This document shows, one piece after another, positions 59,019-61,929 of a DNA stretch of 64,000 nt. Under the pieces are notes generated by a model. It had not been told where the DNA came from. It was given only the letters and a program-made list of their open reading frames with translations, and ran no database searches. The stretch's first letter is position 1, and every line of letters begins with the position of its first letter. The translations under genes were made by a program, and so were the position numbers. The DNA is taken from contig CAJXSO010000011.1 of the NCBI GenBank assembly GCA_913061505.1, positions 1-64,000 of the forward strand, given 5' to 3'. This DNA is from an uncultured Lutimaribacter sp. (GTDB lineage: Bacteria > Pseudomonadota > Alphaproteobacteria > Rhodobacterales > Rhodobacteraceae).

Positions 59019-61202
<2,184 letters not shown>

Positions 61203-61617
61203 GATATTCTCCGAGATTCGGGGCTAACCTGATCTTATTTTGTTCCAGTTCAAGGCGCCATTCCGGGCTGGTTGTTTGCTTGGGCCAGAAAACAAAACAA
61301 TTTGCGGCAAAATGTCCTTTCATCTTTTGGGTCAAAGGCTTATTTCGCTAAATCGTTTTTTGTTTATTGCTCAAACAGCGGCGGTTTGCGGAATTTTCTT
61401 GCTGAATTTTGAAAACTATATCACCCTGAAACTGCAAGCAGCAGGGTTGGCTGCGGTGAGCGTCACAATCACCCACCCCTCGCTCCCCGTGGCGCCACCG
61501 CAGCCAACACCTTCTGTTTGTCGCCAATGCCCCCATTTGTTGTTTGAATTTAAGCGCTGCGGCCTTGCCCCGCTGCGTGTTTTCTTGGATAAGCAGAGCA
61601 GTTGAAGGAGTCTGCCG
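61203..61617. other. Intergenic region between uvrB and the NDUFS4-like gene
   Basis: This 415-base gap carries the divergent promoters of uvrB (left) and the complex I accessory gene (right) and is richer in A+T than its surroundings at the left. The only strong feature is the hairpin at 61446-61508. I find no tRNA, SRP RNA or 6S RNA signature. The open frames inside look non-coding. Confidence 0.6.
61446..61508 (+). other. Long stable hairpin, candidate structured RNA
   Basis: GTTGGCTGCGGTG (61446-61458) and CACCGCAGCCAAC (61496-61508) form 13 perfect pairs. After one bulged A, a further seven pairs (61460-61466 with 61489-61495, one G-T) extend the stem. The 22-base loop is C-rich on the plus strand (ACCCACCCCTCGCTCCCC). 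No T-run follows, so it is not a plain terminator. Confidence 0.5.
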
Positions 61618-61929
61618 ATGCGTGCCCGCATTTACCAACCTGCCAAAACTGCCATGTCCTCGGGGACAGCGAAATCGAAACATTGGGTGTTGGAATATGC
61701 CCCCGATCAGCCGCGCGAAGTTGACCCTTTGATGGGCTGGACATCCTCGGCCGATACCCAGTCGCAGGTGCGGTTGCGTTTCGATAGCAAAGAGGCGGCG
61801 GTGGAATATGCGCAGGCCCATGGGATTGACGCCCAAGTGCTGGAACCCAAGCCGCGCAAGCACAATCTGCGCCCCGGCGGTTATGGCGAAAATTTCGCCA
61901 CCGCACGCCGTGGTGCCTGGACCCACTAA
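61618..61929 (+). CDS. Complex I accessory subunit (NDUFS4-like)
   Basis: A 103-residue protein of the ETC complex I conserved-region family, the bacterial homologue of mitochondrial NDUFS4. Typical segments are [38 protein letters not shown] and the C-terminal [19 protein letters not shown]. It binds the peripheral arm of NADH:quinone oxidoreductase. AAGGAG lies eight bases before the ATG and a strong terminator follows, so it is a monocistronic unit away from the nuo genes. Confidence 0.92.

Follow-up and report, generated by a model that had tools for sequence, protein, structure and literature searches.

The cuckoo RNAs CcsR1–4 of R. sphaeroides carry a C-rich loop motif. In the excerpted text of their published description, they are processed from a transcript that also carries ccaF1 (DUF1127) and ends in a terminator (PMC10253847). 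NfeR1, or alpha-r14, of Rhizobiales is a trans-acting RNA whose ultraconserved C-rich motif stands unpaired on sequence-variable stems; it is made of three hairpins, each with CCUCCUCCC, according to the parts of the paper that treat its structure (PMC10746234). The HRC-8-4 motif of Rhodobacterales is placed mainly between ccoNOQP and ccoGHIS, and a U-run generally follows its stem, in the portion of the account drawn on here (Brewer et al. 2021). StsR (RSs0827) is a 72 nt R. sphaeroides sRNA that is driven by RpoHI/RpoHII and binds UpsM, as summarized in part of PMC8307010. Conserved intergenic sRNAs of Paracoccus denitrificans have also been listed, in a paper seen here in excerpt (PMC5107571).

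A hairpin that invites comparison with these RNAs lies in the window, which is the whole stretch of DNA analysed here (64,000 nucleotides from an uncultured Lutimaribacter sp.). It occupies a gap of 415 bases, as the sequence-only reading had put it, between uvrB (start 61202) and an NDUS4-family gene (start 61618). Our preferred reading, to which we give a probability of roughly 60%, is that the locus is a Rhodobacteraceae small RNA gene with a transcription unit of its own. Its product would act in trans with an anti-Shine-Dalgarno-like C-rich loop and would work in the manner of NfeR1. The features on which this reading is built are collected in the table.

Table. Features of the uvrB–NDUS4 region in the window
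Feature	Position	Strand	Basis or remark
uvrB, divergent upstream neighbour	59019..61202	-	divergent upstream in 70 of 85 matches
Predicted -35 element TTGCTG	61399..61404	+	TTGC consensus upstream of box
Predicted -10 position, CACCCT (family consensus TAnnnT), 17 bases past the -35 hexamer	61422..61427	+	box-aligned consensus
Candidate small RNA, about 80–90 nt, 3' end a guess	61433..61521	+	covariance match, fold, tail
Conserved 5' box TGCAAGCAGC (family GGCAAGCAGC), putative transcript start	61433..61442	+	84-sequence conservation
5' stem arm with bulged A at 61459	61443..61466	+	fold; 12 core pairs covary in relatives
C-rich loop, family core CCCACCCCTCGCTCCC at 61472-61487	61467..61488	+	loop-core conservation
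3' stem arm	61489..61512	+	fold; covariation
Candidate separate NDUS4 promoter TTGCCC-N17-GATAAG	61565..61593	+	best match, simple scan of 61521-61612
NDUS4-family complex I subunit (PF04800), downstream neighbour	61618..61929	+	same strand downstream in 82 of 85 matches

The RNA shares with CcsR1–4 a place in Rhodobacteraceae and a C-rich loop. It differs in being single, in having a promoter-like signal of its own, and in being flanked in the window by uvrB and NDUS4, not by a DUF1127 gene. The likeness to NfeR1 is that of an alphaproteobacterial RNA with a conserved C-rich loop on a variable stem, as NfeR1 is portrayed in the passages cited (PMC10746234). Where NfeR1 has three hairpins in that account, the RNA described here has one long hairpin and a longer loop; moreover, the loop motif CTCCTCC of NfeR1 is found in none of 84 family loop regions, 68 of which have CTCCC. 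The best reading, by analogy, is that the RNA works like NfeR1 but does not belong to the NfeR1 family. HRC-8-4 differs in its neighbours, which are uvrB and NDUS4 here, and in its U-run, which is seldom present here; the distinction is one of location and tail, as given in the excerpted description of HRC-8-4.

The hairpin spans 61446-61508 and had been read from the letters as 13 pairs, a bulged A and seven more pairs. The coordinates are exact: 61446-61458 pair with 61496-61508, and 61460-61466 with 61489-61495, closing a loop of 22 bases. This loop, AATCACCCACCCCTCGCTCCCC, consists mostly of C and A, as had been noted (14 C, 4 A, 3 T and 1 G). Below the stem the predicted fold contains extra pairing, i.e. 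61443-61445 with 61510-61512 and 61434-61441 with 61514-61521. Positions 61436-61520 of the plus strand fold at -49.4 kcal/mol, compared with a mean of -24.6 for 200 dinucleotide shuffles, none of which is as good (z -8.6); the minus strand reaches a z of -4.5. For the candidate RNA, 61433-61521, the predicted fold has -53.5 kcal/mol. One long hairpin dominates this RNA in the window and in the relatives folded, all with putative transcript ends, and the fold of one relative, L201, has no clean hairpin.

It was also proposed that an upstream GCAGCAG can compete for the GGCTGC arm, which would allow a switch. The GCAGCAG is present at 61438-61444, where it overlaps the conserved 5' box GCAAGCAGC, but the switch finds no support in the predicted fold, in which the box pairs mainly with the 3' tail and not with GGCTGC. 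That the box always pairs with the tail is weakly supported by duplex modelling (mean -7.8 versus -6.6 kcal/mol, p 0.009).

A DNA similarity search of 61 genomes matched four, two of them across about 60 bases that correspond to the 5' half and loop of the hairpin; matches are few because the stem changes quickly. Relatives were then sought by way of the neighbouring NDUS4 gene (80 named loci and 30 loci), and subsequently with a covariance model. The hairpin is at the same place in 24 chosen NDUS4 loci; its stem differs, its loop is again CCCACCCCTCGCTCCC or else a variant containing CCCACCCACACTCCC, and the 5' box GGCAAGCAGC is mostly retained. The first covariance model was built on these 24 loci, which had been picked for holding the loop motif and of which the window is one. 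The model matches the window at 61427-61520 with 84.1 bits. Within the genome of the window this corresponds to E 4.2e-15, the runner-up has an E of 0.78, and there is thus one strong copy. Among 198 genomes of the family, 85 have a match, a single one in each case (E up to 0.01). One of these, L202 (E 0.0012), is without a proper loop and is a likely false positive; it is kept in the counts on 85 and dropped from the counts on 84.

Of the 80 named loci, 15 are matched at E < 1e-6, several of which are seeds of the model; Lutimaribacter, Mameliella alba and Gemmobacter are among the names of matched loci. The Tropicibacter locus L061 gives a weak match (E 0.37), yet both box and loop are present. 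A second covariance model, which scored the window lower than the first, was applied to a class-wide draw of 385 genomes and found two matches, the genome of the window and another of the same family (E 0.0075). No match outside Rhodobacteraceae was seen in this draw, which is poor in family members (five among the 22 genomes listed, three of these without a match). Of 394 family genomes, 67 contain an exact box-to-loop pattern for the loop type TCGCT and none contains its reversed control; two of the 67 (G096 and G619) look like chance. On a poorly resolved NDUS4 protein tree, built from 156 rows and 103 columns, the presence of the RNA takes 23 gains or losses, compared with 49.2 in shuffles, and at least four of the 23 are forced by supported branches. 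This suggests clustering with repeated loss or transfer, and nothing beyond.

The compensatory base changes that a functional RNA should show in relatives are found. In the seed alignment of 24 loci, changes on both sides occur in 11 of 12 pairs. With 85 aligned matches, such changes are found at all 12 core pairs; the mean in shuffles is 11.0 and 124 of 500 shuffles reach 12, and therefore the pair count alone is weakly informative. Paired cells make up 91.7%, as against 69.0% in shuffles, and cells with changes on both sides number 220 as against 58.8. The covariation score is 0.697 versus 0.256 in shuffles, none of 500 reaching the observed value. When the partners are slid by 1–3 columns, paired cells fall to 24–40% and the score to 0.068–0.143. 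It should be pointed out that the alignment was fitted to the model and thus favours structure, yet the contrast with the shuffles is large. In addition, the stem cells of 84 sequences contain 95 G-U and 16 A-C combinations. This excess of G-U favours an RNA from the plus strand, as a minus-strand RNA would predict the reverse.

Twelve of the 18 columns of the loop core are 90–98% conserved in 84 sequences, whereas stem columns range from 51 to 89%; the loop conservation is in part a matter of selection, because only loci with the loop motif served as seeds of the model. Besides CTCCC, the loop regions have CCACCC in 73 of 84 cases. The middle of the loop varies, with TCGCTCC in 50 and ACACTCC in 10 of the 84. 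A coding function was considered and rejected: lengths modulo 3 are mixed (33, 28 and 23 of the 84 sequences), and the frames are open in 70, 59 and 60 sequences, with none open in all 84.

Eight consecutive positions of the 5' box are 89–98% identical in 84 sequences, and exact GCAAGCAG is found in 62 of them. In the 84 aligned upstream regions, the commonest bases at -34 to -31 from the box are T, T, G and C (85, 64, 61 and 49%), and a TTG starts within -42 to -34 in 75 regions, compared with 12 in the control stretch from -64 to -56. Closer to the box, T is found at -11 in 57%, A at -10 in 82% and T at -6 in 82% of the sequences. The family layout is thus TTGC-N19-TAnnnT at a fixed distance from the GGCAAGCAGC box. 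It resembles a sigma-70-like promoter whose spacer is 17 bases long and from which transcription would begin at this box or close to it. The CACCCT of the window is a weak -10, having retained only the A and the last T of TAnnnT. In a subset of upstream regions, a motif like ACCTTAAGG is present about 50 bases 5' of the box and is followed by a T-run before the -35; these may represent a regulator site or an UP-like element.

A pyrimidine-rich tail extends for about 10 bases past the stem. Column conservation ends after it, and therefore the 3' end is probably nearby. No intrinsic terminator is evident in the 84 sequences, where by eye a U-run is seldom seen in the tail. The length from box to stem end has a median of 72 nt and a range of 63–83.

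The sequence-only reading had the C-rich loop pair with Shine-Dalgarno sequences. This is plausible by analogy with NfeR1, and CTCCC is frequent in the family, but tests for targets give it no clear support. In 12 genomes, the 16-base complement of the loop, with up to two mismatches, is found 34 times besides the RNA's own copies and the reversed control 48 times; hence no excess is seen. When paired with 54 ribosome-binding sites predicted in the window, the loop reaches a mean energy of -15.0 kcal/mol and shuffled loops -14.7, with 34.5% of 200 shuffles as good. The excess of loop binding at ribosome-binding sites over coding controls reaches the 5% level in a test whose gene starts were picked by a score that favours Shine-Dalgarno pairing; the preference is mostly explained by C content. 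The window contains the 7-mer complement GGAGCGA twice, once as the RNA's own complement, which is fewer than the 7.06 expected. Two near-complements of the loop are alike in two genomes of the window's genus, one at G000:C1:96210-96225 and G001:C91:2969-2984, and the other at G000:C5:11898-11913 and G001:C480:5871-5886.

Since these pairing tests bring no proof, a protein partner stays a serious rival. The RNA might present its loop to a protein that binds single-stranded pyrimidines, and so titrate or target this protein, mRNA pairing being beside the point. We consider such a decoy a tentative alternative. It would account for loop-core columns conserved at 90% or more in greater number than one short mRNA seed needs, for long complements of the loop that show no excess, and for a ribosome-binding-site preference that is mostly composition. 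On the other hand, with a single match per genome the RNA would titrate poorly unless it is highly abundant, and a strict protein site would hardly allow the variation seen in the middle of the loop. A related and somewhat more doubtful view is that of a dedicated display hairpin, in which the variable stem only serves to offer an unusually long and almost invariant C-rich loop to one particular partner, e.g. a C-rich-RNA-binding protein not yet described or one essential RNA. A plain anti-Shine-Dalgarno would manage with a shorter loop, and the extra length leaves scope for a partner protein. If true, this view would make the RNA a Rhodobacteraceae-specific regulator without counterpart among known anti-Shine-Dalgarno sRNAs. 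It is unlikely that the RNA is StsR or another sRNA already described. A copy, L177, is present on the minus strand at about 676,695-676,788 in genome G075, which is probably R. sphaeroides 2.4.1; the RSs numbering, if ordered along the chromosome, of which we are unsure, would presumably place StsR elsewhere. The loop of this copy pairs with the stretch upstream of mraZ at -26.2, no better than shuffled loops (-25.6, sd 2.4), and UpsM was rejected as a partner. The length given for StsR in the excerpted text (PMC8307010) equals the median from box to stem end found here, but the same text has StsR driven by RpoHI/RpoHII and bound to UpsM, whereas the family promoter here looks sigma-70-like. 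StsR is set apart by what this part of its description says and by the mraZ pairing.

The position of the hairpin ahead of NDUS4 raises the question of whether it is a cis-acting leader, i.e. an attenuator or riboswitch-like element that controls expression of the complex I subunit. NDUS4 follows on the same strand in 82 of the 85 matches, and it lies within 300 bases of the RNA in 81 of these 82. A leader is nonetheless very unlikely, and the idea was dropped because of the neighbours in three loci, the uvrB–NDUS4 gaps and a pair of Mameliella loci. In L129 (G093:C88) a TauE/SafE-family gene (PF01925) stands between the RNA and NDUS4, and in L198 and L201 the RNA is present with no NDUS4 within the 900 bases downstream examined. 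With the RNA beside other genes in these two loci, either the RNA has moved or its neighbours were replaced. (The RNA of L198 adjoins an apparent SulP-type transporter, as read from the translation.) In named loci with uvrB upstream, the uvrB–NDUS4 gap has a median of 402.5 bases in the 14 with a match and 225 in the 43 without, and it is shorter than 300 bases in 26 of the 43 and in none of the 14; a gap is not defined for 22 of the 65 no-match loci, whose stretch has no divergent uvrB, and L061 is counted as without a match although its box and loop are present. The final 110 bases before NDUS4 align between the Mameliella loci L069 and L066, with a covariance match in L069 only, and L066 looks like a natural empty allele. 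A leader also accords poorly with the candidate promoter between RNA and NDUS4 in the window, and with the lack of any conserved column past the tail. As to the surroundings, plasmid records gave one 36-base match, at the NDUS4 start, and in two relatives the RNA is followed, at a distance of about 0.9 kb, by a tRNA gene (L122:2529-2602 and L140:2497-2570). A DNA-level element, such as a repeat, a MITE or a structured single-strand site, might be suspected from the near-perfect palindrome of the stem and from the fact that it is unannotated. This is scarcely credible in view of the one strong copy in the genome, the excess of G-U over A-C, a bias that is not expected of a DNA hairpin, and the promoter-like signal with a box at a fixed distance.

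Covariation, a conserved promoter-like signal and signs of independence from the downstream gene give strong support to the candidate small RNA proposed from the letters. Besides the conserved hairpin, loop, box and promoter-like signal, sequence comparison shows a strand bias, a single match in each genome and cases apart from NDUS4; transcription, the transcript ends and mRNA pairing as the way of working are what we infer. In the small RNA reading, RNA polymerase would be directed by the RNA's own sigma-70-like promoter to start at or near the GGCAAGCAGC box. The product would be an RNA of about 80–90 nt that forms a single long hairpin; compensatory changes maintain its stem, and the function of the hairpin would be to keep a C-rich loop of about 20 nt open. 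Through this loop (CCACCC...CTCCC) the RNA would pair with G-rich ribosome-binding sites of mRNAs, and this may lead to a block of translation or to altered mRNA stability.

Rfam 15 has no gathering-level match in the window; with E up to 5 allowed, only two microRNA models appear there, both scoring far short of their cut-offs. In six relatives no Rfam model matches the RNA; the hits there, away from the RNA, are two tRNAs and a third opposite one of the two. The loop letters CCACCCCUCGCUCC and CCACCCCTCGCTCC occur in none of the 5.39 million papers searched, a scope outside supplementary tables and most subscription papers. In the passages covered from the literature on Rhodobacter and related sRNAs, no RNA is described at the uvrB–NDUS4 place. 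With such tables outside the search, the RNA may be an unnamed entry in an RNA-seq list. It probably represents a new family within the known kind of C-rich-loop small RNAs, StsR and HRC-8-4 having been compared by description.

The finding is that of a strongly covarying RNA gene without an Rfam 15 match, spread through a large bacterial family and apparently found in the model organism R. sphaeroides too. With relatives that lack a match as apparent natural knock-outs, and with variant loops, its partner can be searched for by genome comparison. For the photosynthetic and marine Rhodobacteraceae, which are well studied, the RNA would be an additional regulator, and it would offer a clean case of sRNA evolution led by the loop.
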